A stretch of DNA of 64,000 nt from contig NZ_CP040915.1 of assembly GCF_006352065.1 (NCBI RefSeq), forward strand, positions 2,418,001 to 2,482,000, read 5' to 3'. Origin of the DNA: Georgenia yuyongxinii (GTDB taxonomy: Bacteria > Actinomycetota > Actinomycetes > Actinomycetales > Actinomycetaceae). The notes under the pieces were generated by a model. It was not told the origin of the DNA and searched no databases. It worked only from the letters and a program-made list of their open reading frames with translations. A program made the position numbers and the translations under genes. Below, in pieces: positions 44,301 through 64,000 of the stretch (positions are counted from its first letter, which is position 1; each line of letters starts with the position of its first letter).

Positions 44301-44333
44301 ACCAGGCCGGAAACCGGCATCGCAGCGACTACG

Positions 44334-45173
44334 TCAGCGGTTCTCTTCCGCCCATGGCAGCAGGACCTTCTCGAGCCACACCAGCAGGTAGAACAGCACG
44401 ATGCTGATGAGGGCAAGCAGGACGATGGCTGCGAAGGCGAGGGCTGTGTCCGCGCTGGCACCGGACTGCACGATGACGAAGCCCAGCCCGGAAGAGGCAC
44501 CGACGAACTCGGCGATCACCGCGCCGATGACCGCCAGCGAGATGGCGTTCTTGAGGCCGACGAAAATCTGCGGCATCGCCCACCGGAACCGGATCTTGCG
44601 GAACTCCTGCAGGTTCGACGCGTCGAGCGAGCGCGAGAGCTCGACGAGCTCGGACGGGGTCGAGCGCAGGCCGGAGACGGTCGAGAGCACGATCGGGAAG
44701 AAGCACAGCAGGATGACCATGACGATCTTGGGCGTCTGGCCGAACCCCATCCACACCACGAGGATCGGGGCGATCGCCACCTTCGGCACCGAGTTCACGG
44801 CAAGCAGGAGCGGGTAGATCATGAGCTCGACCACGCGGAACCGGGCGATCGCCATCGCCACCGGGATGCCGATGAGGATGGACAGCACGAACCCGGCGAG
44901 GGTCTCACCCAGGGTCACCCACGTCTGCTGGAGCAGGTACGGGCCGAGCTCCACCAGCCTGCCGGTGACCACCTGCGGGCCTGGGACGAGGTACTCGGGG
45001 ATCTCGAACAGCACGGTGGCGAGCCACCACAGCGCGGCGATGATGACGACGGCGAGGACCGGCAGTCCGACGGTCGCCAGGCGGGACGTGCCTGATTGCT
45101 TCGCCGGCCGCGTCCTGGCGCGTGCCGCAGCGTCGCGGCGGAGCCCCTTGTCCGGAGCGCTCACGGCGGTCAT
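44334..45173 (-). CDS. ABC importer permease (SsuC/TauC/ThiX type)
   Basis: A 279-residue permease with about six transmembrane helices after a basic N terminus (residues 1-30). VMVILLCFFPIVLSTVSGLR and the EAA loop DASNLQEFRKIRFRWAMPQI mark the NrtB/SsuC/TauC family. The ATG overlaps the ATPase stop. With its ATPase and the NMT1/THI5-like binding protein it forms a complete importer, of the class that takes up sulfonates, pyrimidine precursors, riboflavin-like or other small aromatic compounds. Confidence 0.92.
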   Translation of the reverse strand: MTAVSAPDKGLRRDAAARARTRPAKQSGTSRLATVGLPVLAVVIIAALWWLATVLFEIPEYLVPGPQVVTGRLVELGPYLLQQTWVTLGETLAGFVLSILIGIPVAMAIARFRVVELMIYPLLLAVNSVPKVAIAPILVVWMGFGQTPKIVMVILLCFFPIVLSTVSGLRSTPSELVELSRSLDASNLQEFRKIRFRWAMPQIFVGLKNAISLAVIGAVIAEFVGASSGLGFVIVQSGASADTALAFAAIVLLALISIVLFYLLVWLEKVLLPWAEENR

Positions 45174-45940
45174 GCGGCAGCACCTTCCTTCTCCGGCATC
45201 AGCAGGTCGTGCAGCCGGGCGCTGACCCTGGTGACGTCCTCGGCGTGCGCGTTCTGGCCGAGCGTGCGCGGCCGGGGTATCTCGACGTCGACGATCTCGC
45301 GCAGCCGGCCCGGACGCGGGCTGAGGACCACGACACGGTCGGCCAGGAGGACCGCCTCGTCGATGGAGTGGGTGACGAACACGATCGTCGTGCTTTCCTC
45401 GGCCACGATGCGCTGGAGCTCGACCGAGAGCTCCTCGCGGGTGAGGGCGTCCAGCGCCGAGAACGGCTCGTCCATGAGCAGGACCTTCGGTCGCTGGATC
45501 AGCGAGCGGCACAGCGAGACGCGTTGCTGCATGCCACCGGAGAGCTCGTGCGGCAGCTTGTCCTCGAAGCCGGTCAGCCCGGTGAGCTCGAGAAGGTCGT
45601 GCGCCCGTGCGGTGTGGCTGGCGCGGTCGAGCTTGAGGATCTCCACCGGCAGCAAGATGTTGTCGAGCACCGAGCGCCACGGCAGCAGCGCCGGTCGCTG
45701 GAACATCACGCTGACGTCCCGGCGCGGCTTGACCACCGGCTCGCCCGCCACCCGGACCGTCCCGGAGGTGGGGGTGATGAGCCCGGAGATGATGCGCAGG
45801 AGGGTGGACTTCCCGCAGCCGGACCGGCCCACCAGCGTCACGAACTCGTTCGTGGCCACCTCGAGGTTGATGTTCTCCAGGGCGTGGACCGTGCCGGACC
45901 TCGTGGTGAAGACCTGTGAGACGGCGTCGATCGAGATCAC
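45170..45940 (-). CDS. ABC importer ATP-binding protein (SsuB/TauB type)
   Basis: A 256-residue ATPase. Walker A GRSGCGKS, the Q loop in VMFQRPALLPW, signature LSGGMQQRV, Walker B VLLMDEPF and switch VTHSIDEA are all intact; PALLPW and THSIDEAVLLADR are typical of the nitrate/sulfonate/taurine importers. GTG start overlaps the stop of the binding-protein gene (GTGA), and its own stop overlaps the permease start, giving a three-gene coupled operon. Confidence 0.94.
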   Translation of the reverse strand: MISIDAVSQVFTTRSGTVHALENINLEVATNEFVTLVGRSGCGKSTLLRIISGLITPTSGTVRVAGEPVVKPRRDVSVMFQRPALLPWRSVLDNILLPVEILKLDRASHTARAHDLLELTGLTGFEDKLPHELSGGMQQRVSLCRSLIQRPKVLLMDEPFSALDALTREELSVELQRIVAEESTTIVFVTHSIDEAVLLADRVVVLSPRPGRLREIVDVEIPRPRTLGQNAHAEDVTRVSARLHDLLMPEKEGAAA

Positions 45941-46992
45941 TGCTGGCCGCCCGGCGCGAGGTCGAAGCTGACGAGGTCCTCGGGGGCGACGTCGCCCGTG
46001 AGGGCGGGAGCCATGATGTCGATGATCGCCTGGACGCGCTCGGCGTCGATCGTGCCGATCTCGACGCCGTCGCCCTCGACGTACGGCGCCATGAGGGTCA
46101 CCTCGGCGGCTGCCACGTCCGGGTTCTGGGTGGGCTGGTACTTGCGGAGGATCTCCCCGGTCTCCTCGGGGTTGGCGATGGAGTACTCCAGCCCCTTCAG
46201 GAGCGCCTCGGTGAAGCGGCTGACCAGGTCGGGGTCGGACTCCGCCAGCTTCTGCGACGTCAGCAGCACGTTGCCGTACAGCTCGGGCAGGAGGTCACCA
46301 TAGGGCAGGACGACGACGTCCTTGCCCTGGGCGGTCGAGGCGATGAGCGGCTCGCCCACGACGAACTGACCGATGGCGTCGACCTGGCCGCTGGCGAGCA
46401 GCTGCGGCAGGGCCGGCGGTGCGGCGGGGACGAACTCAACCTGCGCCGGGTCGATGCCCGCGGCGGCGGCGTACGTGGGGAAGATGACCTGGTTGGTCGA
46501 GCCGGGCTGGTCGCCGATCGTCTTGCCCTCGAGGTCGGTCGGCCCGGCGATGCCGTGGCCGTCGATCGAGATGATCGCCGCGAGGGACTTCTGGTGGATG
46601 ACGCCGGTGGTGGTGACCGGGAGGCCCTCGTTGGCGACGGTGACGACGACCGTGGAGAAGTCGCCCGTGCCGAAGTCGGCACTGCCCGAGGCGATGAGCT
46701 TCATGACGTCGACCGTGCCGGTGCCCGGCTGGATCGTGACCTCGAGCCCGGCCTCCTCGAAGAAGCCCTTCTCCTGCGCGACGTAGGCGTAGGCGTCCCG
46801 ACCGAAGGTGTTGAACGACGTCAGGTACGTGACCTCGGCGGTCTCCGCCGGGGCGTCGCCGGCCGTCTCGTTCGCGGCGGCCGACGTGGTCTCGGCCTCC
46901 GCCGGCTGTGTCGGGGTGGAGCCACCGCACGCGGTCAGGAGGAGGAGGCCGGCGAGGCCTGCAGCGACGCCGGTGGCACGTGAGCTGGTCAT
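45937..46992 (-). CDS. NMT1/THI5-like substrate-binding lipoprotein
   Basis: A 351-residue solute-binding protein. Residues 1-22 are a lipoprotein signal with lipobox LTAC (Cys22), followed by a Thr/Ala/Glu-rich linker. The NMT1 domain begins at about 55: TYLTSFNTFGRDAYAYVAQE, with GSADFGTGDFS and the hinge motif GKTIGDQPGSTN. The class binds pyrimidine or thiamine precursors and many other small ring compounds. It heads the importer operon; the predicted promoter lies at 47144-47172 and overlaps the shared operator. Confidence 0.92.
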   Translation of the reverse strand: MTSSRATGVAAGLAGLLLLTACGGSTPTQPAEAETTSAAANETAGDAPAETAEVTYLTSFNTFGRDAYAYVAQEKGFFEEAGLEVTIQPGTGTVDVMKLIASGSADFGTGDFSTVVVTVANEGLPVTTTGVIHQKSLAAIISIDGHGIAGPTDLEGKTIGDQPGSTNQVIFPTYAAAAGIDPAQVEFVPAAPPALPQLLASGQVDAIGQFVVGEPLIASTAQGKDVVVLPYGDLLPELYGNVLLTSQKLAESDPDLVSRFTEALLKGLEYSIANPEETGEILRKYQPTQNPDVAAAEVTLMAPYVEGDGVEIGTIDAERVQAIIDIMAPALTGDVAPEDLVSFDLAPGGQQ

Positions 46993-47143
46993 GGTGGTCC
47001 TGTCACTCGTTGCTGGGCAGGGCTGCTGCTGGCCGCCGAGAGGTTGGCGCCGACGCAGCGGTTCATCGGGCGTCCGTCTGGTGACGGCGGCGGTCAGCTG
47101 TGATCCGCCGACCGGCTGTGAGGCCAGTCACTCGATACCACCG

Positions 47144-47174
47144 ACCCTGCCCGATATTTGATCAGATGTCAAAG
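47144..47174 (-). promoter_or_regulatory. Promoter and dyad operator, NMT1 importer operon
   Basis: On the minus strand TTGACA (47167-47172) is followed after 17 bases by CAGGGT (47144-47149), a reasonable sigma-70-type promoter about 150 bases before the binding-protein ATG. TTTGATCAGATGTCAAA at 47158-47174 (TTTGA-N7-TCAAA) overlaps the -35 box. The same core occurs at 49004-49020. A repressor bound there would block polymerase; that is inference. Confidence 0.65.
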
Positions 47175-47199
47175 ACGTCCGAAACGGTCCAGCGGGCCC

Positions 47200-48318
47200 T
47201 CAGGACCGCGCGGTCACCACTGCCGGCTCGCGGTGGATCGGGGTGTCGACGTCACGAAGCGGACGCCCCGTGCCACCCCACCGCTGCGCAACGATCTCCG
47301 CGGCGATGGACACAGCCGTCTCCTCGGGGGTGTGCGCGCCGAGGTCCAGACCGATCGGCGAGCGCAGGCGCGCGAGCTGCTCCTGCGTGATGCCCTGCTC
47401 GAGCAGCTGGGCGTTGCGGTCGGCGTGGGTGCGCCGGCTGCCCATGACGCCGATGTACGCGGCGGGCCCGTTCAGCGCCTCCACCAGGAGCGGGATGTCG
47501 AACTTCGGGTCGTGGGTCAGCACGCAGAGCACGGTGCGCTCGTCCACGTCGATCGACTGCAGGTACTCGTGCGGCCACTGCACGACGATCTCGTCGACCT
47601 CCGGGAAGCGCGCCCGCGTGGCGAACACCGGCCGGGCGTCGCACACCGTGACGTGGTACCCGAGGAAGGACCCGATCCGGGCCACCGCGGCAGCGAAGTC
47701 GATCGCCCCGAACACGACCATCCGCGGTGCGGGGGCGAAGGACTCGACGAAGACCGACAGCTCGTCCATGCGCCGCTCCCCGTGGGTGCCCAGGTGCACC
47801 ATCTGGTTGCGGCCGTGCTCGAGCAGGCCGCTGGCGACGTCCACGATCGCCGCGTCCAGCCGCTCGTCCCCCGTGCCACCCCTGGCCACGCCGTCGACAA
47901 GGAGCACGTGGCGGCCCATCAGGCCCCCCTCCTGCGCGGCGGCCACGGTCGCCAGCGCCGTCGGCCGTTTGGCGTCGACGGCAGCGACGAGGTCGGCCAG
48001 GTGGTCGGGTGCGGCGGGGTCGAGGCGCTGGACGAACAGCTCGATCGTCCCCCCGCACGTCAGGCCCACCTCGAACGCGTCGTCGTCGCTGACGCCGTAC
48101 TTGACGCGCTGCGGTTCGCCGCTCTCCAGCACCTCCCGGCACACCTCGTAGACCGCGCCCTCGACGCATCCGCCCGAGACGCTGCCCACCGCCTCGCCGT
48201 CGGCGTTGACGGCCATGGCGGCGCCCGGCCCGCGCGGGGAGGACTTCCACGTGCGCACCACGGTGGCGACGGCGAACGGTGCGGTCCAGGACCGGATGCT
48301 CTCGAGGATGTCACGCAC
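47200..48318 (-). CDS. xdhC: XdhC-family molybdenum cofactor maturation protein
   Basis: A 372-residue XdhC/CoxI/CoxF protein. Residues 1-80 form the XdhC_CoxI domain with SSPRGPGAAMAVNADG, GSVSGGCVEGAVYE and LTCGGTIELF. The C-terminal Rossmann part has VVFGAIDFAAAVARIGSFLG and YIGVMGSRRTHADR. XdhC binds the molybdenum cofactor, promotes its sulfuration and inserts it into xanthine-dehydrogenase-family enzymes. The GTG start overlaps the cytidylyltransferase stop by eight bases. No molybdenum enzyme gene is adjacent; the nearest is the form II hydroxylase at 24-27 kb. Confidence 0.92.
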   Translation of the reverse strand: MRDILESIRSWTAPFAVATVVRTWKSSPRGPGAAMAVNADGEAVGSVSGGCVEGAVYEVCREVLESGEPQRVKYGVSDDDAFEVGLTCGGTIELFVQRLDPAAPDHLADLVAAVDAKRPTALATVAAAQEGGLMGRHVLLVDGVARGGTGDERLDAAIVDVASGLLEHGRNQMVHLGTHGERRMDELSVFVESFAPAPRMVVFGAIDFAAAVARIGSFLGYHVTVCDARPVFATRARFPEVDEIVVQWPHEYLQSIDVDERTVLCVLTHDPKFDIPLLVEALNGPAAYIGVMGSRRTHADRNAQLLEQGITQEQLARLRSPIGLDLGAHTPEETAVSIAAEIVAQRWGGTGRPLRDVDTPIHREPAVVTARS

Positions 48319-48925
48319 GGCGATCGTCTCCTGGCTCGGTGCCGGCCACGGGCCGGCGGGGGGTGTCGGTGTCGGTGCGGTGACCAGCGACGGTCACCGG
48401 CGGGGTGTCGATGTCCTGCCCGGTCGCCAGATCGGCGCACTCGACCGTCAGGTGCTCGTGGGCGCGGAGGTAGGGGCCGGCGCCGTCGGCGTCCGTCAGG
48501 GACGCGAGCAGGGGGGCCAGGTGCGCCTGCGGCAGGACGACGGGGTGGCCCGGACGGCCGTCGAAGACGGCCCGGGCCAGGCGGTCACCGGCCGCGGTGA
48601 GGACCCGGGCGACGACGTCCGCACCAACGTCGGGGCAGTCGACGACGTGGACGACCACCCGGCCCGCTTCCGGCCCGACGGCGGCCAGCCCGGTCCGCAG
48701 CGACGCACCGATCCCCCCCTCCCAGCCGGCGCAGTGGATCCCCTCGACCCCGGCGGGCAGGTCCGGCTCGGCGGCGCCGGTGACGACACGGACCGCGGGG
48801 CAGCCGCCGTCGTGCAGGGCCTGCACCGCGCGCTCGAGCCATCCCGGCACGAGGATCTTCGGCATGCCGTACCGGCGTCCGGCGCCCGCGGCGAGGACGA
48901 GCCCGACGGTGTCGGTGACGACCAT
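48311..48925 (-). CDS. MocA-like molybdenum cofactor cytidylyltransferase
   Basis: A 204-residue NTP-transferase. VGLVLAAGAGRRYGMPK is the nucleotide-binding loop, and VVVHVVDCPDVGADVVARVL with RPGHPVVLPQAHLAPLL are the MobA/MocA-type metal and substrate blocks. MocA converts Mo-MPT to the cytosine dinucleotide form used by xanthine-dehydrogenase-family hydroxylases. The region after PK is a little shorter than in MocA. GGAGGGACCC precedes the ATG. It is divergent from moaA and overlaps xdhC. Confidence 0.85.
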   Translation of the reverse strand: MVVTDTVGLVLAAGAGRRYGMPKILVPGWLERAVQALHDGGCPAVRVVTGAAEPDLPAGVEGIHCAGWEGGIGASLRTGLAAVGPEAGRVVVHVVDCPDVGADVVARVLTAAGDRLARAVFDGRPGHPVVLPQAHLAPLLASLTDADGAGPYLRAHEHLTVECADLATGQDIDTPPVTVAGHRTDTDTPRRPVAGTEPGDDRRA

Positions 48926-48990
48926 GGGTCCCTCCTGCGGCGTTGGAACAGGGGCTGGGCGAGGCCCGGGGTTCGGGCTACGATGGCTGG

Positions 48991-49020
48991 ATTCTTCGTA
49001 GGATTTGATCACATGTCAAG
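48991..49020. promoter_or_regulatory. Divergent promoter and dyad operator, mocA/moaA
   Basis: For the minus-strand genes TTGACA (49014-49019) and AAGAAT (48991-48996) are spaced by 17 bases. TTTGATCACATGTCAAG at 49004-49020 overlaps that -35 box and lies between the mocA-like and moaA start codons. It differs from the 47158 site at only two of 17 positions. One bound regulator could control both transcripts. Confidence 0.65.
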
Positions 49021-49047
49021 CACGTGCGTAGCAGAACGGAGGCCGGG

Positions 49048-50100
49048 ATGACGACGCCCTTGGGTCTGCCTGCCTCCTTCCCGCCCGACCGGCTCGGCCG
49101 GCCCCTGCGTGACCTGCGCATCTCGGTCACCGACCGGTGCAACTTCCGGTGCGTGTACTGCATGCCGAAGGAGGTGTTCGGCCGGGACTACGCCTTCCTG
49201 CCGAGGGCCGAGATCCTCACGTTCGAGGAGATCACCCGGGTGGCGCGGGTGGCGGTGGCGCACGGGGTGGAGAAGCTGCGCCTGACCGGCGGGGAGCCGT
49301 TGCTGCGCCGCGGCATCGAGGAGCTGGTTGGGGCCCTCGCCGCGCTGCGCACCCCCGACGGCCGCCCGGTCGACATCGCCCTGACCACCAACGGCTCCGC
49401 GCTCCCGGTCAAGGCGCGCGCCCTCAAGGACGCCGGCCTCACGCGGGTCAGCGTGTCGCTGGACTCCCTCGACCCCGACCGGTTCGCGGCGATGAACGAC
49501 GTCGGCTTCCCGGTGGACCGGGTACTGCGCGGCATCGAGGCCGCGCAGGAGGCCGGGCTCGGCCCGGTCAAGGTCAACATGGTGGTCAAGCGCGGCACCA
49601 ACGACGCCGACATCGTGCCCATGGCCCGGCACTTCCAGGGCACCGGGGTGGTCGTGCGGTACATCGAGTTCATGGACGTCGGCGCGACGAACGGCTGGCG
49701 GATGGAGGAGGTGCTGCCCTCGTCGGAGGTCGTTGCCCGCATCGACGCCGAGCTGCCCCTCGAGCCCGTCGACCCCGCCTACCGTGGCGAGACGGCCGCG
49801 CGGTGGCGCTACCGCGACGGGTCCGGCGAGGTCGGCGTCATCTCCTCGGTGACCGGCGCATTCTGCGGCACCTGCACCCGCGCCCGGCTCTCCACCGACG
49901 GCAAGCTCTTCACCTGTCTCTTCGCCGCCGACGGGTTCGACCTGCGGGCCCTGCTGCGTGACCCGACCAAGGACGACGGCGACCTCGTCACCGCGCTGGG
50001 CGGGATCTGGGGGGCTCGCGGCGACCGCTACTCGGAGCTGCGCGCCGGCCTGGGCGCGCGGCGCGCCAAGCGCATCGAGATGTCCTACATCGGCGGCTGA
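49048..50100 (+). CDS. moaA: GTP 3',8-cyclase MoaA
   Basis: A 350-residue radical SAM enzyme for the first step of molybdenum cofactor synthesis. The N-terminal cluster motif is CNFRCVYC; the C-terminal [4Fe-4S] ligands are CGTC and the cysteine in [19 protein letters not shown] is the SAM-binding GGEP motif. The final GG of MSYIGG is the conserved C-terminal tail needed for catalysis. The ATG at 49048 has GGAGG five bases upstream and beats a GTG eight codons earlier. No moaB, moaC, moaD or moaE is adjacent, so this may be a second, substrate-induced copy. Confidence 0.95.
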
Positions 50101-50152
50101 GCCACCCTCCCCGCAGGCGAACTAGCCCTTGTCGGCCAGCCGACCACTAGCG

Positions 50153-50312
50153 GCGAGATGTCATCTCCTCCGCGAGATGTACCTCGTCGGCGAGATGTTG
50201 TCTTCTCCGCCGATGCCCCTTTCGCCGTGCGTCTAAGGCGTCGATGAAATCTCGCGGAGAAGTTGACATCTGGCGGAGGAGATGACGTCTCGCGGAGAAG
50301 ATGACATCTCGC
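50153..50312. repeat. Inverted block of GCGAGATGTCATCT repeats, copy B
   Basis: Three 18-19-base units in plus orientation (50153, 50172, 50190) are followed by at least three in the opposite orientation (50251-50312). Outer arms 50153-50181 and 50284-50312 pair at 26 of 29 positions. Unit consensus is GCGAGATGTCATCTYCTCC. The block fills the gap between the convergent ends of moaA and the FAD oxidoreductase. Copy A at 11128-11170 shares the unit. It could act as a bidirectional terminator or be a REP-like dispersed element. Confidence 0.8.
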
Positions 50313-50329
50313 GGGAACTTGGGTGAGGG

Positions 50330-52009
50330 TTAGCGGCGGCGTCTGGCGGCGACGGTGTCTGCGGCCTGCCGTACACCGCGCGCCACCGCTTTTGCGCCCG
50401 CCTTCACGCCGCCGGCCAGCCGCTCGCCGGCCGGTGGCGTCAGGAGCAGCTGGGCGCACAGGTACCCCGAGAGCGCGTTCGTGCCGGCCCCGGGCCAGGT
50501 CGACGCACCCACCAGATACAGCCCGGGTACCGCGGTCGTGTACCCCGACGCACCGAGCCACGGCCGGAAGAGGAAGTTCTGCGCCACGTGGTGGCTGCCG
50601 GCCACGGAGTCCCCGCCGACGAGGTTGGGGTTGGACCGCTGGAGGTCCAGCGGGGAGAGCACGGTGCGGGCGCGCACGAGGGCGCCGAGCCCGGGCGCGT
50701 ACTCCTCGAGCTTGGCGAGCACCCGGTCGGCCATCGCCTCCTTGGCCTCGTCCCAGTCCCGCGCGGTGATCTCCCCGCGCGCGTCGCCGCGGATCTGCGA
50801 GGGCAGGCTGCGTACCTGGACCCAGACCACCTGCCGGCCGTCGGGGCTGCGGCTGGGGTCGACCTGGCTGGTCTGGCCGACCACCAGCAGCGGGCTGTCC
50901 GGGAGGAGCCCGGCGACGGACTGGGCGTACGTCAGGGACAGGTCGTCCACGTACGGGCCGACGTGCACGTACGCGAACGACGCGAGGTCGGGGTCCCCGG
51001 CCCACGGCACGGGGCCGTCCAGGGCGAGGTGGACCATCATCGTGCCCGGGCCGTACCGGAACCGTTCGGCCTGCTCCCGGTCCGCGGCCGGCACGACGCC
51101 GTCGTCGCTCAGGAGCTCGCCGTACAGCTGGGTGGGGGTGGTGCCGGCGACCACGGCGCGACGCGCGCGCAGCTCCTCCCCGCCTTCGAGCCGGACGCCG
51201 GTGGCGCGAGCCGCCGAGGTGAGGACCCGCTCCACCCTGGCCCCGGTGCGCACCTCTCCGCCGGCCTCGGCGATCAGCGCGGCCAGCGCCCGCGGCAGGG
51301 TGGAGATCCCACCCTCGGCGACGGCGATCCCGGCCTCCATGTCCCCGAAGGTCTCCACGAACGGGAACATCGCCCCGAACGACACATCGGGGCCGTAGTC
51401 CAGGTGCATGCCCCAGGCGGCCAGGAGCGCCTTGGCCTCGGGGGTGCCGAACCAGCGCTCACCCAGCTCCCGGGTGGAGCAGGCGAGGATCTGGGCCAGC
51501 TGCAGCGCCCGGCGCGGGCCGGTGCGGCGCACGCCGCGGGTGAGCGCCCCCAGCGCCGCGGCGCTGGGCAGCCGCGTGCCGTAGATCGGCATGAGGGTGG
51601 CCATGAACTCGTGCTGGAGCTCGCGCAGGCGGCGCCAGCCGTCGAGGTCGGCCGCGGAGTGCTCGCCGAGCAGCCGCTCGGTCTTCTCGGCGTCCTGGTA
51701 GACCCGCAGGCTGGTGCCGCCGGGGAAGACGCTGGCGTAGGGCCGGTCGCTGACCACGGGGCGGAACCCTGTGCGGGCGAGCTCGTCGGCCAGCTCGGCG
51801 TAGACGGGGCTGGCCAGGAACAGGTTGAGGTTGGTGGCGTACAGGTCGTGCACCAGCCCCGCCTCGGTCGCCTCGCCACTACGGGTGGCGCCGCCGACGT
51901 CGTCGTTGCCCTCCAAGACCACCACGTCCCAACCCGCGCGGGCGAGGTACAAGGCGGTGACCAGACCGTTGTGGCCGGAACCGATGACAACGGCATCGAC
52001 TGTGCTCAT
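50330..52009 (-). CDS. FAD-dependent oxidoreductase (COG1233, phytoene-desaturase-like)
   Basis: A 559-residue flavoprotein. VVIGSGHNGLVTALYLARAG is the N-terminal FAD motif with GGATRSGE after it, and the closing PGLYLVGASTWPGAGTNALS is the C-terminal FAD block of COG1233 proteins. Relatives desaturate carotenoids, but many in catabolic clusters have unknown substrates. A basic 40-residue tail follows. GAGGAG precedes the ATG at 52009. It is 44 bases downstream of the StyA-StyB fusion and probably in the same operon. Confidence 0.88.
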   Translation of the reverse strand: MSTVDAVVIGSGHNGLVTALYLARAGWDVVVLEGNDDVGGATRSGEATEAGLVHDLYATNLNLFLASPVYAELADELARTGFRPVVSDRPYASVFPGGTSLRVYQDAEKTERLLGEHSAADLDGWRRLRELQHEFMATLMPIYGTRLPSAAALGALTRGVRRTGPRRALQLAQILACSTRELGERWFGTPEAKALLAAWGMHLDYGPDVSFGAMFPFVETFGDMEAGIAVAEGGISTLPRALAALIAEAGGEVRTGARVERVLTSAARATGVRLEGGEELRARRAVVAGTTPTQLYGELLSDDGVVPAADREQAERFRYGPGTMMVHLALDGPVPWAGDPDLASFAYVHVGPYVDDLSLTYAQSVAGLLPDSPLLVVGQTSQVDPSRSPDGRQVVWVQVRSLPSQIRGDARGEITARDWDEAKEAMADRVLAKLEEYAPGLGALVRARTVLSPLDLQRSNPNLVGGDSVAGSHHVAQNFLFRPWLGASGYTTAVPGLYLVGASTWPGAGTNALSGYLCAQLLLTPPAGERLAGGVKAGAKAVARGVRQAADTVAARRRR

Positions 52010-52053
52010 GGGTGAGGCTCCTCGGGAAGTCACGACGCAGATGGGTGGGCCGC

Positions 52054-53844: not shown

Positions 53845-54031
53845 TTTGGCGCTCCGCCAGCGTCTCGCCGGCGATCATGAGCTCGTCGGCGGGGACCTCC
53901 ACGATCCACGCCCGCACCGCCGCCAGCGGGGTGCCGGTGGTCTCGTGGGCGGCCTGGGAGATGGCGGCCAGCAGCTCACGCTTCTGCTCGGTGGTGCGTC
54001 CGGCGCCCATGGTGATCTGGATGAGTGGCAC
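53825..54031 (-). CDS. 4-oxalocrotonate tautomerase family protein
   Basis: A 68-residue tautomerase. MPLIQITMGAGRTTEQKREL gives the catalytic Pro1 after Met removal, and the basic residues expected near 11 and 39 are present (R12, R40 region: AVRAWIVEVP). In meta-cleavage pathways these enzymes isomerise 2-hydroxymuconate to 2-oxo-3-hexenedioate. AAGGAG lies nine bases before the GTG. It is directly upstream of, and overlaps, the StyA-StyB fusion gene. A strong hairpin at 54073-54110 separates it from the FAH gene. Confidence 0.9.
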   Translation of the reverse strand: MPLIQITMGAGRTTEQKRELLAAISQAAHETTGTPLAAVRAWIVEVPADELMIAGETLAERQSAGNAH

Positions 54032-54072
54032 GGTGCGGTCTCCTTCGGTGGTGGTGTGCGCGGAAGGCGGGT

Positions 54073-54110: not shown

Positions 54111-54129
54111 TGCCGACGCTGCGGGGTCC

Positions 54130-55486: not shown

Positions 55487-55512
55487 TGTGTTCTCCTTCT
55501 TCTCGCGCGCTG

Positions 55513-57828: not shown

Positions 57829-57839
57829 GAGACCTCCTG

Positions 57840-57862
57840 TGATTTGTGATATCTGATACCCC
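57840..57862 (-). promoter_or_regulatory. Operator-like site before the Ldh operon
   Basis: On the minus strand the stretch reads GGTATCAGATATCACAAATC, 12-34 bases before the GTG at 57828. Its core ATCAGATATCA differs from the ATCAGATGTCA core of the 47158 site at one base. TCTGATAC also occurs beside the Liv promoter (62825-62832). No clean -35/-10 pair could be placed around it, so it may act at or below the start of transcription. Confidence 0.45.
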
Positions 57863-57977
57863 ATCATGCCATGGCTTTCGGCGAAAGGGGAGTCCTGACG
57901 GTCCGGGTCCTTCGGTGAGGCGCCGGCCGGGCGGGGTAGGGCGGCGGACGTGCCAGACGCCGTCGTCGCCCCAGCGG

Positions 57978-59150
57978 CTACTGGACGGACCCGTCGTCGC
58001 CGGTCCGGGCACCCACGGCGACCGCCGTGTCTGTCGGGGCCGACGCCGGACCCACGCCGGGCTGCCGGCGCGCTCGTGCGATGCTCCGTCGGCTGATGGC
58101 GTCCCAGGGCCTGCGCAGCGCGAACTCCTTGCCGCCGGTCAGACCCTCGGGCCGCAGGAGCAGCATGAGCACCAGCACGGCGCCCAGGATGATCAGGCGG
58201 GCGCCCTCGGGGATCGTGACGATGACCGGCCCCAGGACGACGCCGGACTGGAACATCTGCAGCAGCGAGTCGAGCACCGAGAAGGTGATCGTGCCGGCCA
58301 CCGCGCCCCACAGGCTGTTGCGCCCGCCCAGCACGAGCATCGCGATGAGGATGAAGGTGTACTCGATGCCGAGCTGGGAGGCCTGGACCACGCGGTTGGT
58401 CTCCGCCCACAGCGCCCCGCCGAGCCCGGCGACGGCACCGGAGACGGTGAACGCCACCACCCGGTGCCAGGTGACGTGCACGCCCGAGGCCGGCGCGGCG
58501 ATGAGGGACTCCCGGCTCGCCCGCAGCAGCCGGGCGCTGCGGGTCTGCTGGTAGATCCACGACACCACGATCACGGCGATCGCGAGGTAGAGCAGCTCCT
58601 GCAGCCCGAGGGCGTTGGGGATGCCCACCATGGACTGGCCGCTGGGCGGGGCGACCTTGGTCCAGTAGGTGAGCACCACGCCCACCATGAGCAGCAGGGC
58701 GAAGGTGGCGATGCCGGCCTGCAGGCCGTTGGCGCGCATGAGGAACGGGGCGAAGATCGCGGCGAGGACGCCGCCGCCGACGACGGCGAGGAGCAGCGCC
58801 GCCCAGAGCGGCAACTGGGCGTCGACCAGGAACGGGAAGGGGTCGGCCAGGATGTTTCCCTTGAGGACGGGGTCGATGACCATCAGCCCATAGGTCCACG
58901 CGCCGACCGCGACGAAGGCGACGTGCCCGAAGGACAGCACCCCAGAGTTGCCGATGAAGATCTGCAGGCCGACCACGATGACGAGGCTGACCAGGAAGTA
59001 CTCGGCCTGCACGACCAGCGATCCGCCGCCGAGGCTCGCGACGAGGACGACGAGGTAGAGCACCAGCACGGGGCCGCCGAGGCTGACCAGACGTGCGCCC
59101 CAGCCGGGGACGGCAGTGGCGGTCCGCGCGGTGGTGGTGTCGGTGTTCAT
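57978..59150 (-). CDS. livM: Branched-chain-type ABC importer permease LivM
   Basis: A 390-residue permease with about ten transmembrane helices. GNSGVLSFGHVAFVAVGAWT is the LivM hallmark near the N terminus; IAMLVLGGRNSLWGAVAGTI is the conserved late loop. A 50-residue hydrophilic C-terminal tail (RRPWDAISRRSIARARRQPG) is longer than usual. It is the last gene of the five-gene Liv operon; its ATG overlaps the LivH stop. A 149-base gap separates it from the Ldh gene. Confidence 0.93.
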   Translation of the reverse strand: MNTDTTTARTATAVPGWGARLVSLGGPVLVLYLVVLVASLGGGSLVVQAEYFLVSLVIVVGLQIFIGNSGVLSFGHVAFVAVGAWTYGLMVIDPVLKGNILADPFPFLVDAQLPLWAALLLAVVGGGVLAAIFAPFLMRANGLQAGIATFALLLMVGVVLTYWTKVAPPSGQSMVGIPNALGLQELLYLAIAVIVVSWIYQQTRSARLLRASRESLIAAPASGVHVTWHRVVAFTVSGAVAGLGGALWAETNRVVQASQLGIEYTFILIAMLVLGGRNSLWGAVAGTITFSVLDSLLQMFQSGVVLGPVIVTIPEGARLIILGAVLVLMLLLRPEGLTGGKEFALRRPWDAISRRSIARARRQPGVGPASAPTDTAVAVGARTGDDGSVQ

Positions 59151-60025
59151 GCGCGCTCCAGGACGGGGCCGCGGACCAGGAGGCCCGACGGCTTGAGGAT
59201 GAGGATCACCATGACGACGGCGAAGACGAACGCGTTGCGGAAGTTGACGACGTCGCCGGGGAGGTAGCTGGTGAGGATCGAGGAGACGAACCCGACCACG
59301 AAGCCGCCGACGACGGCGGACCCCAGCTTGTCGATGCCGCCGATGACCGCGCCGATGAGCGCGAGGACGGTGATGTTGACGCCGAAGGTGGGCGACACCG
59401 CCCCGGTCTGCACGACGAGCGCGAACCCGACCGCCGCCGCCAGCGCCCCGCTGATGCCGAACGTCAGCGCGATCACCTTGTTCGCCCGCACGCCCAGCAG
59501 GCGGGCGGTGGCGAAGTCGGTAGAGGCCGCCTGCACCTGGAGCCCGAGGCTGGACCGGTTGAGGAACTGGTGCAGGGCCAGCAGCAGCAGACCGGCGACG
59601 ACGATGGTGACCAGGGAGAGCATCTGCACCCGGACGCCGCCGATCTCCACCGAGCGGGCGAGCGCGGGCGCGACGGCCGCCGTGCGGACGTTGTTGCCGA
59701 AGACGATCTCGTAGACCCGCTGGAGCAAGAAGCTCAGCCCGAAGCTCGCGATGAGCAAGGTCGAGGCGTCCGCTCGTCGCATCCGCCGGAAGACGGCGAA
59801 CTCGAGCACCAGCGCGAGCAGCACGGAGGCCGCGATCGCCAGCGCCAGGGAGATGACGGCGCCCCAGTGCCAGGTGAGCACGAGCGTGTAGGCGGCGATG
59901 GTGATGATCTCGCCGTGCGCGAAGTTGGCCAGGCGCATGACGCCGAAGACCAGGCCGATCCCCAGTGCGGCGAGCCCGTACAGGGCGCCGGTGGAGATGG
60001 CGTCGATGAGTCCTTGGATGATCAT
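59147..60025 (-). CDS. livH: Branched-chain-type ABC importer permease LivH
   Basis: A 292-residue permease with about eight transmembrane helices. LIDAISTGALYGLAALGIGL and MRLANFAHGEIITIAAYTLV are the N-terminal LivH signatures; ALIGAVIGGIDKLGSAVVGG is the conserved late loop. It pairs with LivM to form the channel. ATG overlaps the LivF stop by four bases. Confidence 0.94.
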   Translation of the reverse strand: MIIQGLIDAISTGALYGLAALGIGLVFGVMRLANFAHGEIITIAAYTLVLTWHWGAVISLALAIAASVLLALVLEFAVFRRMRRADASTLLIASFGLSFLLQRVYEIVFGNNVRTAAVAPALARSVEIGGVRVQMLSLVTIVVAGLLLLALHQFLNRSSLGLQVQAASTDFATARLLGVRANKVIALTFGISGALAAAVGFALVVQTGAVSPTFGVNITVLALIGAVIGGIDKLGSAVVGGFVVGFVSSILTSYLPGDVVNFRNAFVFAVVMVILILKPSGLLVRGPVLERA

Positions 60026-60780
60026 GATCCGAAGTACGCCTTCGTGAGGAGGTCTTCGTCCTGGGCCGCGTCGGGTGTCAGCTCGAGCGTGATCCGCCCG
60101 TCGTGGAGCACGTAGGTGCGGTCCGCGAAGGCGATGGTGAACTCGGCGCGCTGCTCGACCACGAGGATCGAGGTGCCCTGGGCCCGGACGGCCTCCAGCG
60201 CCTCGAAGACGGTGTCGACGGCGGTCGGCGAGAGGCCGAGGGAGGGTTCGTCGAGCATCAGCACGTCGGGCCTCGCGAGCAGGGCGCGGCCGATGGCGAG
60301 CTGCTGCTGCTGGCCGCCCGAGAGCAGGCCGGCGGAGCGGCCGCCGAACTCGCGCAGGATCGGGAAGAGGTCGAGGACCTGCTCGAGGTCCTCGTCGATA
60401 CCGGTGCGGTCGCGTCGTCCGACGAGGCCGAGGCGGAGGTTGTTGCGGACCGAGAGGTCCCCGAAGATGTGCCGGCCCTCGGGGACGAGCGCCAGGCCGC
60501 TGCGGATGACGTTCTCGGGGGCGAGCCCGGTGATGTCGCGCCCAGCCAGCCTGACGGCGCCGGCGCTGGTCCGCACGGCGCCCATGAGCGCCTGCAGGGT
60601 GGAGGACTTCCCCGCACCGTTCGGCCCGATGAGGCCGACCGTCTCGCCGCGTCCGACGGCGAAGGAGATGCCCTTCACCGCGGGGACGCCGCTGTACCGG
60701 ACCTCGAGGCCGGCGACCTCGAGCATGGGCTCTTGCTGCGTCGTCGGCTCGAGCGCCGACTCAGGCTGCGTCGTGGGCAC
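60022..60780 (-). CDS. livF: Branched-chain-type ABC importer ATPase LivF
   Basis: A 252-residue ATPase. Walker A GPNGAGKS, the LivF-specific LVPEGRHIFGDLSVRNNL, signature LSGGQQQQL, Walker B VLMLDEPS and LGLSPTAVDTVFEAL are all present. About 20 N-terminal residues are extra. The GTG start overlaps the LivG end by 20 bases; a later in-frame start at MLEVAGL is also possible. Confidence 0.94.
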   Translation of the reverse strand: MPTTQPESALEPTTQQEPMLEVAGLEVRYSGVPAVKGISFAVGRGETVGLIGPNGAGKSSTLQALMGAVRTSAGAVRLAGRDITGLAPENVIRSGLALVPEGRHIFGDLSVRNNLRLGLVGRRDRTGIDEDLEQVLDLFPILREFGGRSAGLLSGGQQQQLAIGRALLARPDVLMLDEPSLGLSPTAVDTVFEALEAVRAQGTSILVVEQRAEFTIAFADRTYVLHDGRITLELTPDAAQDEDLLTKAYFGS

Positions 60781-61519
60781 GTCCGCTCCTCCCCAGGTAG
60801 GCCTCGGCGAGGGCCTCGCTGCGCTGCACCGTCTCCGGCGTGCCCTCGAGGAAGCTCTTCCCCTGGACGACGACGTGGATGGTGTCGCAGACGGCCATGA
60901 TCAGCCGGATGTTGTGGTCGATGAGCAGCACGCCGGTGCCCTCCGCCGCGATCGAGCGGACGACGTCGCCGAACTCGCCGATCTCGCCCTCGTTGAGGCC
61001 GGCGGCGGGCTCGTCGAGCAGCAGGTAGCGCGGTTCGATCGCGAGGGCCCGGGCGACGCCGAGGCGCCGCTCGGTGCCGTGCGGCAGGGCCGCCGCGAGC
61101 TGGTTGGCGCGGTCGGCGATGCCGAGCCGCTCCATGAGCTCGGTCGCCCGGCGGCGGGCCTCCGCCCGCCGCCGGCCGGTGCCGAGGGCAGCCACCTCGA
61201 TGTTCTCCCGCACCGAGAGCCCGTGGTACGTGTGGCCGTGCTGGAACGTCCGGGCCAGGCCGTTGCGCGCCTTGGTGCGCGCGTCGGTCCTGGTGACGTC
61301 CACGCCGTCCATCGTCACCGTGCCGGTGTCCGGCCGGTCGTACCCGCTGATGATGTTCACCAGCGTGGACTTCCCCGCGCCGTTCGGGCCGATCAGCCCG
61401 AGGACGGCGCCGCTCGTGACGGTCAGGTCGACGCCCACAAGGGCCTTGACCCCCCGGAAGGACCGGGTGATACCGCTGACGGCGAGAGTCTTCGTCATGG
61501 TGGCTGCCTGTTCGCTCAT
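60761..61519 (-). CDS. livG: Branched-chain-type ABC importer ATPase LivG
   Basis: A 252-residue ATPase. Walker A GPNGAGKS, ARNGLARTFQHGHTYHGLSV (Q loop), GTERRLGVARALAIEPRYLL (a degenerate signature, usual in LivG) and Walker B LLLDEPAAGLNEGE are visible; IDHNIRLIMAVCD is the switch. It works with LivF. ATG overlaps the binding-protein stop. Confidence 0.94.
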   Translation of the reverse strand: MSEQAATMTKTLAVSGITRSFRGVKALVGVDLTVTSGAVLGLIGPNGAGKSTLVNIISGYDRPDTGTVTMDGVDVTRTDARTKARNGLARTFQHGHTYHGLSVRENIEVAALGTGRRRAEARRRATELMERLGIADRANQLAAALPHGTERRLGVARALAIEPRYLLLDEPAAGLNEGEIGEFGDVVRSIAAEGTGVLLIDHNIRLIMAVCDTIHVVVQGKSFLEGTPETVQRSEALAEAYLGRSGRAHDAA

Positions 61520-62751
61520 CCTGCGAAGGTGACCTTCTCGGGCGCGCGCTCCTCGACGAACGCGAGCTTGCCGTCCTTGACCTGCAGCACCCGCATGGGC
61601 CGCTCGACGGAGATGTGCAGCTCCTCGGTGAACTTGGTGGGGCCGGCCATGAGGTCCAGCTCGCCCATCGTCTCGAGCGCGGCTGTCAGCTTGTCGCCGT
61701 CCCAGCTGCCGGCCTCCTCGTAGGCGGCTTTGATGGCCTGGAGGGTGGAGTGCCCGGCGACGAACGCGCCGACGGAAGGACGCTCGCCGTAGGCGGCCTC
61801 GTAGGCGTCGGCGGCCTCGTTGACGGCGGGGTTGGGGTCGTCGCCGTTCTTCGCGGCATAGGTGACCACGTAGTAGTCGCTCAGGCCAGGGATGCCGCCG
61901 GTCCAGAAGTCACCGTCCATGCCGAAGCCGGAGATGATCGGCGCGTTCACGCCGCCGTCGCGCATCTCCTTGGCGACGGTGGCGCCGCCCGGGGAGTAGC
62001 CGCAGTTGGCGATGACGGCCGGCTCCTCGCCCGCCGCGACGGCGGAGACCGTCTCGCGGACGGAGTCGCCCTGCTGGTAGTCGTACTTGGAGACGATCGT
62101 GCCGCCGAGCTCGGTGAAGCGCTTCTCGAAGATCTCGCACTGGTTCTGCGTGTACTTCAGGGTGGTGTCCGTGAGGAGGACGGCGCTGGTCCAGCCCTGC
62201 TCGTAGGCGAACTCGGCCTGGATCGTGGCCTCGCCGGGGGTCCCAGAGCCCATCGAGAACCCGTTCTCCAGCCCGCCGGCCGGCCCGTAGATCGGGTCGC
62301 CGATGCAGGGGGCGATGCTCAGGACGTTCTCGGTCTCGGCGACGAGCGCGGCCGGGGAGGAGACGTCGTAGTCGCAGGTGACGATGAGGACCTCGGCACC
62401 GCCACTGATGAGCTCGGTCGCCGCCGAGGCGTACCGGTCGAGGTTCGTGCCGGTGTCGATGACCTTCAGCTCGATCTGCTGCCCGCCGATACCACCCGCG
62501 GCGTTGAGCGTCTCGGCCTCCAGCTTCATGGCGTTCAGGGGCGGGGTGTCGATCGGGCCCATGAAGCCCGACGACGCCATGACCACGCCGATGGTCACGG
62601 TCTCGGCGCTGCCGGAGGGCTGGGTGCCCGCGGCACCGTCGGAGGTCTCCGCGGAGGGCGCGGGTTCCTCTTGGGCGCTGGAGACGCAACCGGCCAGGAG
62701 GAGCGCCACGCCGGCAAGACCGGCGAGCGGTGCGATGCGAGGGAGGGACAT
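61516..62751 (-). CDS. Periplasmic-type binding lipoprotein of the Liv importer
   Basis: A 411-residue receptor of the Peripla_BP_6 (LivJ-like) family. Residues 1-22 are a lipoprotein signal ending LLAGC; a Ser/Glu/Gly-rich linker follows. VTIGVVMASSGFMGPIDTPP, then NAAGGIGGQQIELKVIDTGT, opens the domain. Many Liv-type systems in catabolic clusters import aromatic acids rather than amino acids, and the neighbours suggest this here. It heads the Liv operon. Confidence 0.92.
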   Translation of the reverse strand: MSLPRIAPLAGLAGVALLLAGCVSSAQEEPAPSAETSDGAAGTQPSGSAETVTIGVVMASSGFMGPIDTPPLNAMKLEAETLNAAGGIGGQQIELKVIDTGTNLDRYASAATELISGGAEVLIVTCDYDVSSPAALVAETENVLSIAPCIGDPIYGPAGGLENGFSMGSGTPGEATIQAEFAYEQGWTSAVLLTDTTLKYTQNQCEIFEKRFTELGGTIVSKYDYQQGDSVRETVSAVAAGEEPAVIANCGYSPGGATVAKEMRDGGVNAPIISGFGMDGDFWTGGIPGLSDYYVVTYAAKNGDDPNPAVNEAADAYEAAYGERPSVGAFVAGHSTLQAIKAAYEEAGSWDGDKLTAALETMGELDLMAGPTKFTEELHISVERPMRVLQVKDGKLAFVEERAPEKVTFAG

Positions 62752-62824
62752 GTCACCACCGAGTTTCTGTTGGGGGTCCGAGGACAGGATCAGGCGGTCG
62801 GGCCGGCGCCTGTGCCGGCCAGGG

Positions 62825-62859
62825 TCTGATACTGGCAGTTTGATCACAGATATTTCAAG
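62825..62859 (-). promoter_or_regulatory. Promoter and operator-like site, Liv operon
   Basis: On the minus strand TTGAAA (62853-62858) is followed after 18 bases by CAGTAT (62829-62834), placing the transcript start about 65 bases before the binding-protein ATG. TTTGATCACAGATATTTCAAG at 62839-62859 covers the -35 box; TTTGATCA and TCAA half sites match the 47158 and 49004 elements but with longer spacing. Confidence 0.6.
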
Positions 62860-62940
62860 GAGTCTTGGTAAAGATCTTGTTACGGTCCTGCGTTCGGAGC
62901 GCCGGTCACCGTGCTGCGTGCGCGGGGGCGCGCCCGCCAC

Positions 62941-63008
62941 CGACCGAGGGTCTTTGGGCCGAGCGAGCGTGGCCAACCATGCTCGCTCGGCCCCACGACC
63001 CTCGGTCG
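62941..63008. terminator. Long nested hairpin after the flavin monooxygenase gene
   Basis: Outer arms 62941-62952 and 62997-63008 are perfect over 12 bases. After a 3 x 3 internal loop an inner stem of 13 pairs (62956-62968 with 62981-62993) closes a 12-base loop. It lies 27 bases past the monooxygenase stop on the minus strand and is the likely terminator that insulates the Liv promoter. No T-run follows. Confidence 0.75.
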
Positions 63009-63035
63009 ACGCAGACGCCCCGGAGGGGATCGTCC

Positions 63036-64000
63036 CTACGAGGCCGGGACCGGCACCGAAGCCGCGGCGCCGACGATGCTGCGGTACTTCTCGACGACGG
63101 CGTCGGGGTCGCCGGCCGGGAGGATCGCCGCGATGTGGGCGTCCGGGCGCAGCAGGACCACCACGTCCTCCCCCACGCCGAGCCGGCGGCGCAGCCGCTC
63201 CGAGGGGTCGAAGAGGGCCCGGTCGCGTAGCCCGGAGTCGTGCGGGGCGTCCCAGCGGCTGACCACGTAGTGCCGCAGGCCCGGCCGCGTCGGGCCGGGG
63301 ATGTTCGGCTGCCGGCGGGCGTCGGTGAAGTGGAGCGCGACGAACGAGTTCGCGCACAGGTCGTGCACGTACGTCTGGCCGTCGGGCCCGAAGACCGGCA
63401 GGTCGGGTGCGCGGTCCCCCGCCGTGACGGGCAGCGGCACGTCGCCGGACTTGACCATCGACCACTCGCCGTCGCCGTCCACGTCGAGCTTCACGCCGAG
63501 CAGGGCGCGGGTGAACGCGTTGCCCCAGTTGCCCTCACCCATGGCGGGTGCGCCCTCGGCCCGGCGGCCCATGTTCGCGCGCGCCGCCTCGGCGAGAGCC
63601 CCGGAGCCCTTGATGGCCACGGGAGCCTGCTCCTGCTCGTAGCCGGCGAGCACCGACTCGTCGGCCCAGCCCCGGAAGAGCCAGGCCAGCCGCCAGGGCA
63701 GGTTCGAGGCGTCGAGGATGCCGGTGTTGAGCCCGAGCGCCCACATCGGGGTGATGAGGTGCGCGGCGTCGCCCATGAGGAAGACCCGGCCCACGTTCCA
63801 CGTCTCGGCCACGCGGTGGTGGACGCTGTAGATGTTCGTGCCCAGGATCTCCATCGAGTCCGTCTCGCCGATGAAGCGGGCCACCTTCTCGGCGAACTCC
63901 TCCCGGGTCGGTTCCGGGCGGCCGGGGCCGAGGGGGAAGAGGAAGCGCCAGCAGTGCGGCTGGCGCACGAGCACCATCCACTCCTGCGGGTCGCCGAAGT
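63036..64000 (-). CDS. Class A aromatic flavin monooxygenase (partial)
   Basis: The C-terminal part of a PheA/TfdB/MhpA-like flavoprotein hydroxylase; the frame runs off the right edge of the window, so the N-terminal FAD motif is not visible. VFLMGDAAHLITPMWALGLN, then TGILDASNLPWRLAWLF, is the GD motif region. The segment after GDAAH-x-x-x-P reads MWALG rather than the common GGQG. A thioredoxin-like C-terminal domain follows (VTAGDRAPDLPVFGPDG to the end), as in phenol hydroxylases. It likely hydroxylates an aromatic ring at the entry of the pathway. Confidence 0.9.
   Translation of the reverse strand, partial: FGDPQEWMVLVRQPHCWRFLFPLGPGRPEPTREEFAEKVARFIGETDSMEILGTNIYSVHHRVAETWNVGRVFLMGDAAHLITPMWALGLNTGILDASNLPWRLAWLFRGWADESVLAGYEQEQAPVAIKGSGALAEAARANMGRRAEGAPAMGEGNWGNAFTRALLGVKLDVDGDGEWSMVKSGDVPLPVTAGDRAPDLPVFGPDGQTYVHDLCANSFVALHFTDARRQPNIPGPTRPGLRHYVVSRWDAPHDSGLRDRALFDPSERLRRRLGVGEDVVVLLRPDAHIAAILPAGDPDAVVEKYRSIVGAAASVPVPAS

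Follow-up and report, generated by a model that had tools for sequence, protein, structure and literature searches.

What does the cluster of import and enzyme genes at the right-hand end of this stretch of Georgenia yuyongxinii DNA degrade? The window (the whole stretch analysed, 64,000 nucleotides, positions 2,418,001 to 2,482,000 of contig NZ_CP040915.1) belongs to a genome of a single 4.17 Mb contig, called G000 below. From position 44334 it holds the first part of a cluster of about 30 kb, which crosses the window end at 64000 and runs on for about 10 kb, to about 73970, on the same (minus) strand. A first-pass annotation had seen there an undescribed system for the uptake and catabolism of a nitrogen-containing aromatic compound, resembling the 2-aminophenol/2-aminomuconate routes. 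The aromatic part of this proposal stands and nitrogen is probable; the likeness to 2-aminomuconate breakdown was not supported.

We found that the locus splits into a lower core and a varying upper module. It is real, modular and partly conserved, with nitrogen likely in its substrate, and we see about an even chance that its two modules serve to break down an aromatic acid containing nitrogen, most likely of the indole or quinoline type. An N-aromatic substrate is supported by the molybdenum hydroxylase, nearest in the PDB to quinoline 2-oxidoreductase, the XdhC protein, the StyA-family enzyme, the presence of RidA at 11 of 11 loci, and an amidohydrolase resembling ACMSD. We infer the substrate, each reaction and the reaction order from the genes, families, conserved residues and modular synteny observed.

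A lower core and a varying upper module

Synteny was followed by tblastn with the cluster proteins; statements on gene content hold for the fetched stretches, and matches below about 34% identity were set aside. Eleven loci were compared: that of G000, those of G338, G398, G400, G401, G404, G612, G634 and G642, and those of Agrobacterium tumefaciens Q15/94 and Mesorhizobium loti NZP2037. The core consists of eight genes, encoding a PHBH-type hydroxylase (63036-64628, or L010:6036-7628), an SDR (L010:7628-8353), the Ldh_2-type dehydrogenase Ldh2 (56737-57867), cupinA (56058-56747), cupinB (55513-56061), RidA (55082-55486), an FAH-family enzyme (54165-55085) and an amidohydrolase (L010:11711-12673). 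All 11 loci had it whole or nearly whole, and they range from Actinomycetota to Agrobacterium and Mesorhizobium. CupinB, RidA, FAH, Ldh2 and the amidohydrolase were present at every locus, the PHBH-type enzyme and cupinA at 10, and the SDR at 9; the loci had been gathered by cupinB or RidA, so these two counts depend on sampling.

The upper module comprises the molybdenum hydroxylase, an LLM flavin monooxygenase (L010:10520-11650), the StyA-StyB fusion (52054-53799), the COG1233 enzymes, the Liv importer and a protein of the 4-oxalocrotonate tautomerase (4-OT) family. Its genes were found at fewer loci: COG1233 at 7, CoxL above 44% identity and LLM above 65% at 5 each, StyA-StyB at 4. The NMT1 importer, with a substrate-binding protein above 69% identity, was found at 5 of the 11, and a weaker match in G642.

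The two parts are physically separate in G398 and G400, which carry two neighbouring modules. Module A reads CoxMSL, CoxG, LLM, FMN reductase, COG1233b, PHBH, Liv, Ldh2, 4-OT, StyA-StyB, COG1233a, MoaA, MobA, XdhC; module B reads NMT1 importer, GntR, Ldh2, SDR, PHBH, cupinA, cupinB, RidA, FAH, amidohydrolase. In G398, an LLM gene product 67% identical to LLM1 lies beyond module B. G404 has a single fused cluster resembling that of the window, without matches to the NMT1 importer, the MobA-like protein and the FMN reductase. In the stretches fetched for G401 (60 kb) and G634 (55 kb), module B stands alone with NMT1 as the sole cluster importer; the neighbourhood in G634 includes a 33% CoxL match, a dihydrodiol-dehydrogenase-like gene and a Rieske-type gene. 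Thus NMT1 importer orthologues adjoin the core in G398, G400, G401 and G634, and in G398, G400 and G404 COG1233a has a MoaA orthologue next to it on the opposite strand. G338 has the core and neither importer, G612 the core with Liv, COG1233a/b and LLM, and G642 has Ldh2, cupinB, RidA, FAH and the amidohydrolase, with PHBH, SDR and cupinA unmatched. In Agrobacterium and Mesorhizobium the core is on plasmids, with COG1233 enzymes and ABC importers; its neighbours are Rieske genes or two molybdenum hydroxylase sets, the latter in Mesorhizobium.

Linkage of the StyA-StyB fusion with both cupins and RidA, which had been put forward as a check, holds within the genus alone, where two genomes have the genes in one cluster and two others have them in neighbouring modules; no StyA-StyB gene was present within the 60 kb fetched for G401. 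StyA-StyB was also discarded as a synteny anchor, given the other contexts of five StyA/StyB loci elsewhere.

Duplicated genes give a hint on the order of events. In G398 and G400, PHBH and Ldh2 occur once per module, and the cupins, RidA, FAH, amidohydrolase and SDR once in the fetched stretches (RidA alone was searched genome-wide). In a PHBH tree of 13 rows, one G. thermotolerans gene being counted twice, A and B copies separated with supports of 100/100 and 100/99. The Ldh2 tree grouped three B copies (99/99); its A group was weaker (88/95) and included the G634 copy, which is a B copy by synteny. The simplest reading is that PHBH and Ldh2, being duplicated per module, act before two substrates converge, the rest forming a shared trunk.

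The core is rare. RidA, at an E value of 1e-40 or better, was found in 5 of 99 relatives including the genome itself, all of the same genus (own plus 4 of 8 others). CupinB at 1e-15, own genome counted, was found in 2 of 396 genomes of the phylum, 4 of 394 of the class and 1 of 396 of the order, these samples overlapping. Among 72,556 plasmid records 14 matched cupinB, two above 56% identity; the other 12 (28-50%) were set aside, and three of those loci were inspected. A scan of named genomes with StyA-StyB gave one relative, in Georgenia thermotolerans (74%), of which strain NBRC 104148 has both modules. CupinA as query detected 6 of 396 genomes at 1e-6, of which G000 and G338 have the core; no core lay beside the cupinA relatives of G204 and G061, the two inspected of the four further genomes. 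In G204 (L024:9967-14252) the relative, 39% identical, stands beside an NMT1-type importer with an ATPase 70% identical to that of the window, and a 29% LLM fragment.

Two Streptomyces plasmids (L035:8621-18796 and L057:8691-18651) carry an HpaB-type hydroxylase cluster with a VOC protein, an RraA-like protein, a cupinB relative, an aldehyde dehydrogenase, RidA, a cytosine permease and FAH, and no assigned pathway. The Streptomyces and Gemmobacter loci tested by tblastn had RidA and FAH relatives, but Ldh2 and the amidohydrolase were unmatched; the PHBH-type match in Streptomyces was partial (27%), and Gemmobacter had two distant CoxL matches (28-29%).

Genes of the cluster and their enzymes

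Twenty cluster proteins were scanned against Pfam and NCBIfam at E 0.001; for the ABC permeases and ATPases, the MobA-like, MoaA and CoxS proteins and the GntR genes, sequence and synteny alone supplied the names. As read from sequence and translations, the genes are open on the minus strand, apart from the MoaA-like one. The gene identities given by the first-pass annotation held in these scans, and 15 of 26 neighbouring minus-strand pairs overlap. The class A hydroxylase needed one correction, in that its gene is truncated by the window end at 64000 and runs to 64628.

The PHBH-type hydroxylase, a class A FAD monooxygenase, matched FAD_binding_3 and, weakly, Rng_hyd_C. It scored 148 bits against PnpA, 128 against RebC and 97 against the pyridine hydroxylase HspB, placing it in the PnpA/RebC/MhpA group. 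Ldh2 matched the Ldh_2 model.

CupinB is of the Cupin_7/ChrR type and is a candidate metal oxygenase. His110, His112, Gln116, His148 and His167 were kept at 11 of 11 loci; cupins usually carry Glu at the place of this Gln. Its PDB match to 2,4'-dihydroxyacetophenone dioxygenase was weak (E 0.0012). The cupins Dke1 and 2,4'-dihydroxyacetophenone dioxygenase bind their metal with three His. CupinA matched neither Pfam nor NCBIfam models at E 0.001; we call it a cupin because of a PDB match (E 3e-5) and because all 10 of its orthologues retain an HxH and a later His (His46, His48, His91). The cupinA match is limited to the N-terminal half in G338, G612, Agrobacterium and Mesorhizobium. Neither cupin matched the Pfam model of 3-hydroxyanthranilate dioxygenase (3-HAO) or an extradiol model at E 0.001. 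Structure predictions from single sequences were of low confidence, with a predicted local distance difference test score (pLDDT) of 37 for cupinB and 38 for cupinA.

RidA (Ribonuc_L-PSP, 92.7 bits) was 65-88% identical across the 11 core loci. The active site of RidA imine deaminases contains an Arg, Arg105 in E. coli RidA. In the core protein Lys114 replaces it at 10 of 11 loci, and a Gly is aligned at the remaining one; among five PDB relatives compared, Lys occurs in one and Arg in the other four. The protein scored 56.6 bits against RutC and 47.7 against AmnD. The FAH enzyme (FAA_hydrolase) kept a His86/Glu89 pair and Glu136, Glu138, Asp167 and Lys183 at all 11 loci. Its NCBIfam matches, seven in all, are to models of the diketo-acid hydrolase, HpaG and FAH types, with no DmpE/DmpH-type model among them; its nearest relatives are OPET decarboxylase/HpaG and 2,4-diketo-acid hydrolases. 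The amidohydrolase, of the Amidohydro_2 family (PF04909), had ACMSD as its best PDB match (114.6 bits), with HxH, His, His and Asp kept at 11 of 11 loci.

Molybdenum hydroxylases of the xanthine oxidase family, to which the upper-module enzyme belongs, spread their MoCoBD, 2Fe-2S and FAD domains over three subunits and have a catalytic Glu in a GEGG motif. Beyond the window, CoxL (L010:13110-15557) has MoCoBD_1/2 domains and keeps GEGG, CoxM (L010:16105-16971) has FAD_binding_5, and CoxS was recognised from its translation between them; CoxS is not in the list of gene pairs, so the CoxL to CoxM spacing of 547 bases spans it. CoxG (L010:12670-13113) precedes CoxL, and two GntR-type genes follow CoxM on the opposite strand. 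Aerobic carbon monoxide (CO) dehydrogenases carry an AYxCSFR loop in their large subunit. This pattern is missing from CoxL and the NCBIfam scores for CO dehydrogenase lay under the cut-offs, and we rejected this identity. Inside the window (47200-50100), genes for an XdhC/CoxI-type maturation factor (47200-48318; XdhC_C, 148.8 bits), a MobA-like nucleotidyltransferase (48311-48925) and a MoaA-like protein of molybdopterin synthesis (49024-50100, plus strand) are additions to the earlier gene list; the XdhC and MobA-like proteins probably serve the molybdenum hydroxylase.

The StyA-StyB fusion (581 amino acids; Smoa_sbd 98.8 bits, Flavin_Reduct 145.1 bits) is 39% identical to a Burkholderia StyA and 49% to its StyB. 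The 4-OT family protein (53825-54031) has a Pro after its start. Best PDB matches of the LLM monooxygenase were SfnG and RutA, and an SsuE-like FMN reductase (L010:9978-10523) is encoded next to it. COG1233a (50330-52009) is an FAD oxidoreductase of CrtI/CrtO-like type, and COG1233b (L010:8350-9981) is a second COG1233 enzyme. COG1233 genes also form divergent b/a pairs (L069:1076-4229, L062:10392-13551); the pair of G612 is close to the core, that of Sulfitobacter beside hydroxyproline and peptide-uptake genes. The best plasmid relatives of COG1233a are haloarchaeal (four records, 53-57% identity), with no other cluster gene beside them in L058:11974-13650 (by tblastn) and L059:11974-13650 (by annotation). 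These haloarchaeal and marine relatives yielded no substrate clue.

Of the two importers, that of NMT1/THI5 type consists of a permease (44334-45173), an ATPase (45170-45940) and a substrate-binding protein (45937-46992; NMT1, 162 bits), that of Liv type of LivM (57978-59150), LivH (59147-60025), LivF (60022-60726), LivG (60761-61519) and a substrate-binding protein (61516-62751; Peripla_BP_6, 156.5 bits).

The gap in which the MoaA and COG1233a genes converge holds, at 50153-50312, a 19-base unit (about GATGACATCTCGCGGAGAA) present three times on the minus strand and four times on the plus strand. A BLAST search with this segment gave 92 matches across the genome, both strands counted, and the array was not seen in the corresponding gap of G398, G400 and G404; it is a dispersed palindromic family of no assigned function. 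No Rfam match at gathering score was obtained in 44000-64000. About 20 kb further along, outside the window (L011:416-15000, genome 2495-2510 kb), an LLM monooxygenase and an NMT1-type importer occur a second time, together with AraC-like regulators, an SDR, a flavin monooxygenase and a sulfatase-like gene, all named from sequence.

Substrate and route

In the two-module reading, the Liv importer would bring in a bicyclic substrate, to which the molybdenum hydroxylase CoxLSM would add oxygen next to the ring nitrogen. StyA-StyB, the LLM monooxygenase (depending on FMNH2) and the two COG1233 flavoenzymes would then oxidise and open the heterocycle, leaving an aminoaryl, anthranilate-like intermediate. 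The core would start with hydroxylation by the PHBH-type enzyme and oxidation by the three-His cupin, go on with an ACMSD-like decarboxylation, after which RidA would take off the nitrogen as an enamine or imine, and end with the FAH enzyme hydrolysing a C-C bond to give acids of central metabolism. A second substrate, brought in by the NMT1 importer, would enter the core directly. More tentatively, and at well below an even chance, the core may cleave the ring of aminoaryl or N-ring acids by a new pathway, spread over two phyla, in which the ChrR-type three-His cupin opens the ring, the Lys-type RidA frees the nitrogen, no meta-pathway aldolase takes part, and upper modules (molybdenum, Rieske, StyA-StyB) plug in.

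The clues to an indolic substrate came from Agrobacterium. Proteins of its upper module are 57% (Rieske alpha), 54% (Rieske beta), 45% (isochorismatase) and 57% (SDR) identical to those of a cluster on the carbazole plasmid pCAR1. This reductase-Rieske-isochorismatase-SDR-hydrolase set (L074:12988-18518), about 6 kb from antABC, looks like an indole-type upper pathway. The last member of the set, the hydrolase, shares 64% identity with a hydrolase encoded next to SDR, StyA and StyB in Burkholderia pyrrocinia; we take this hydrolase to be the cofactor-independent oxygenase of the iif cluster, an enzyme of dienelactone-hydrolase type. The iif cluster (StyA-type oxygenase, reductase, SDR and cofactor-independent oxygenase) converts indole to anthranilate, according to a 2018 indole review (PMC6221969). 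A Sulfitobacter locus, whose genes agree with those given for iad in PMC12633357, encodes a Rieske alpha that shares 43% identity with that of Agrobacterium, and closer matches (59%) are found in two Variovorax plasmids. These sequence relationships point to indolic substrates for the upper module beside the core, and the StyA-StyB of the window would fit.

Several observations weigh against an indole- or quinoline-type substrate. At the thresholds used, the proteins of the window cluster gave no match to the iif-type hydrolase, the IadI-type cyclase or Rieske proteins, so that the indole link is by association; an iad-type cyclase was not found in the genomes G000 and G338 at E 1e-20. CoxL is nearly as near to CO dehydrogenase (329.0 bits) as to its best PDB match, quinoline 2-oxidoreductase (332.8 bits). 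The PDB relatives of the LLM monooxygenase act on a sulfone and on pyrimidines, COG1233 relatives also adjoin hydroxyproline genes, and the five other StyA/StyB loci, all on plasmids (fused or split, three unannotated), have their own contexts. The G612 neighbours, tried as proof of an indolic substrate, lost weight because their hydroxylase-cyclase-ligase part is a unit apart from the core in G634, and because in G401, G642 and G400 none of the other queried genes accompanies the cyclase. Riboflavin/lumichrome catabolism, with its cupin, xanthine oxidase and Rieske families, was also considered and rejected: its P450, thiamin-enzyme and extradiol steps, as given in PMC12746152, were not found in the cluster.

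It could be, though we regard this as unlikely, that the ring broken down by the core is a pyridine and not an aminobenzene, much as in the 4-hydroxypyridine (kpi) pathway. The PHBH-type enzyme would hydroxylate a hydroxypyridine carboxylate, the amidohydrolase would decarboxylate it and a cupin would open the ring; RidA would then deaminate the compound to a formylpyruvate-like product, which FAH would split. According to the Arthrobacter report (PMC7356986), the kpi hydroxylase belongs to PF01494 and the ring opener, which depends on a metal, to an unexpected family; a hydrolase, a FadR-family regulator and the FAH-family KpiD, of putative role, are also part of the pathway. Three core genomes lack a meta-pathway aldolase over cut-off, two molybdenum hydroxylase sets stand beside the core in Mesorhizobium, and an alpha/beta hydrolase follows it in Agrobacterium, all in keeping with a pyridine substrate. 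However, the Amidohydro_1 ring opener and alpha/beta hydrolase of kpi are not among the 20 scanned proteins, the PHBH-type enzyme is nearer PnpA and RebC than HspB, and the SDR and Ldh2 would be left with no clear job.

A nitrogen-free aromatic substrate appears quite unlikely. RidA would then merely detoxify reactive by-products, as a member of a family that matches 638 plasmid records, and the molybdenum enzyme would be an aldehyde oxidase or CO-dehydrogenase-like; the top NCBIfam models of CoxL are indeed CO and glyceraldehyde dehydrogenase, all far under cut-off. The cupinB and RidA relatives in the Streptomyces HpaB-type cluster agree with such a role, but the absence of Ldh2 and amidohydrolase matches there, and the partial PHBH-type match, reduce the likeness. 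Retention of RidA at every core locus at 65-88% identity, the ACMSD-like amidohydrolase and the indole-like upper module of Agrobacterium argue for nitrogen.

The first-pass comparison with 2-aminomuconate breakdown was put to the test in six core genomes (G000, G338, G398, G400, G401 and G404). The 4-hydroxy-2-oxovalerate aldolase model has matches below its cut-off in 14 of 14 control genomes, so only matches above it were counted: these were found in G000, G398 and G400, and not in G401, G404 and G338. A DmpE-type hydratase over cut-off was found in none of the six, with weaker matches in five and none in G401. With the aldolase in 3 of 6 and the hydratase in 0 of 6, the core seems independent of a meta-type lower pathway. 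In addition, no aldehyde (semialdehyde) dehydrogenase occurs among the 20 scanned cluster proteins (the rest of the genome was not searched), and tblastn detected no tautomerase at core loci without the upper module. A version of the 3-hydroxyanthranilate/2-aminomuconate route, with the cupin as 3-HAO, the amidohydrolase as ACMSD, RidA as deaminase and then 4-OT and FAH, is thus very improbable and was rejected in its classical form: the closeness of the amidohydrolase to ACMSD, the RidA, tautomerase and FAH family names and the aldolase of three genomes speak for it, but the FAH subtype, a RidA nearer RutC and with Lys, cupins outside the 3-HAO model, and the missing enzymes do not.

Comparison with known systems

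In agreement with the first-pass annotation, we found no described pathway with this gene set in the open-licence PMC literature. To our knowledge, few gene sets are known for breaking anthranilate-like and N-heterocyclic acids. By the 2018 indole review (PMC6221969), the gentisate branch of indole breakdown still lacked a revealed functional gene. A compact core in two phyla, with its own importer in several genomes, offers a small set of proteins open to test. If the two-module reading is true, its cupin and RidA variant would likely catalyse new reactions, and upper modules would be swapped onto a common lower pathway.

The 3-hydroxyanthranilate/2-aminomuconate pathway, whose genes we take to be those named nba and amn, shares with the cluster an ACMSD-like amidohydrolase, the RidA and FAH families and the tautomerase name. 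The cluster differs by its FAH subtype, by the lack of a detected aldehyde dehydrogenase and 3-HAO-type cupin match, and by the aldolase count of its core genomes (3 of 6). The kpi pathway of Arthrobacter sp. IN13 is alike in its PF01494 hydroxylase, non-classical ring opener, FAH-family gene and GntR/FadR-type regulator; unlike it, the cluster has Amidohydro_2, cupins, RidA, Ldh2 and SDR, with Amidohydro_1 and the alpha/beta hydrolase not found among the 20 proteins scanned. The iad auxin pathway of Variovorax and Bradyrhizobium is likewise an indolic-acid locus with its own ABC importer, and the Rieske alpha of Agrobacterium relates to that of Sulfitobacter (43%), whereas the window cluster has no matched Rieske, thiolase, CoA ligase or IadI-type cyclase. 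Monooxygenases of StyA2B type, which we take to be the name for fused styrene/indole monooxygenases, also unite StyA and StyB domains in one polypeptide; the surroundings of the window fusion differ from those of the five plasmid StyA/StyB loci inspected.

Finally, the iif/ind systems of Acinetobacter and Cupriavidus resemble the cluster in having a StyA-family oxygenase with a flavin reductase and an SDR, and anthranilate is the expected product. In the window the oxygenase is fused to its reductase, and no iif-type hydrolase was found among the cluster proteins (the rest of the genome was not searched). To this common part the cluster adds a molybdenum hydroxylase, the LLM monooxygenase, the COG1233 enzymes and the lower core.

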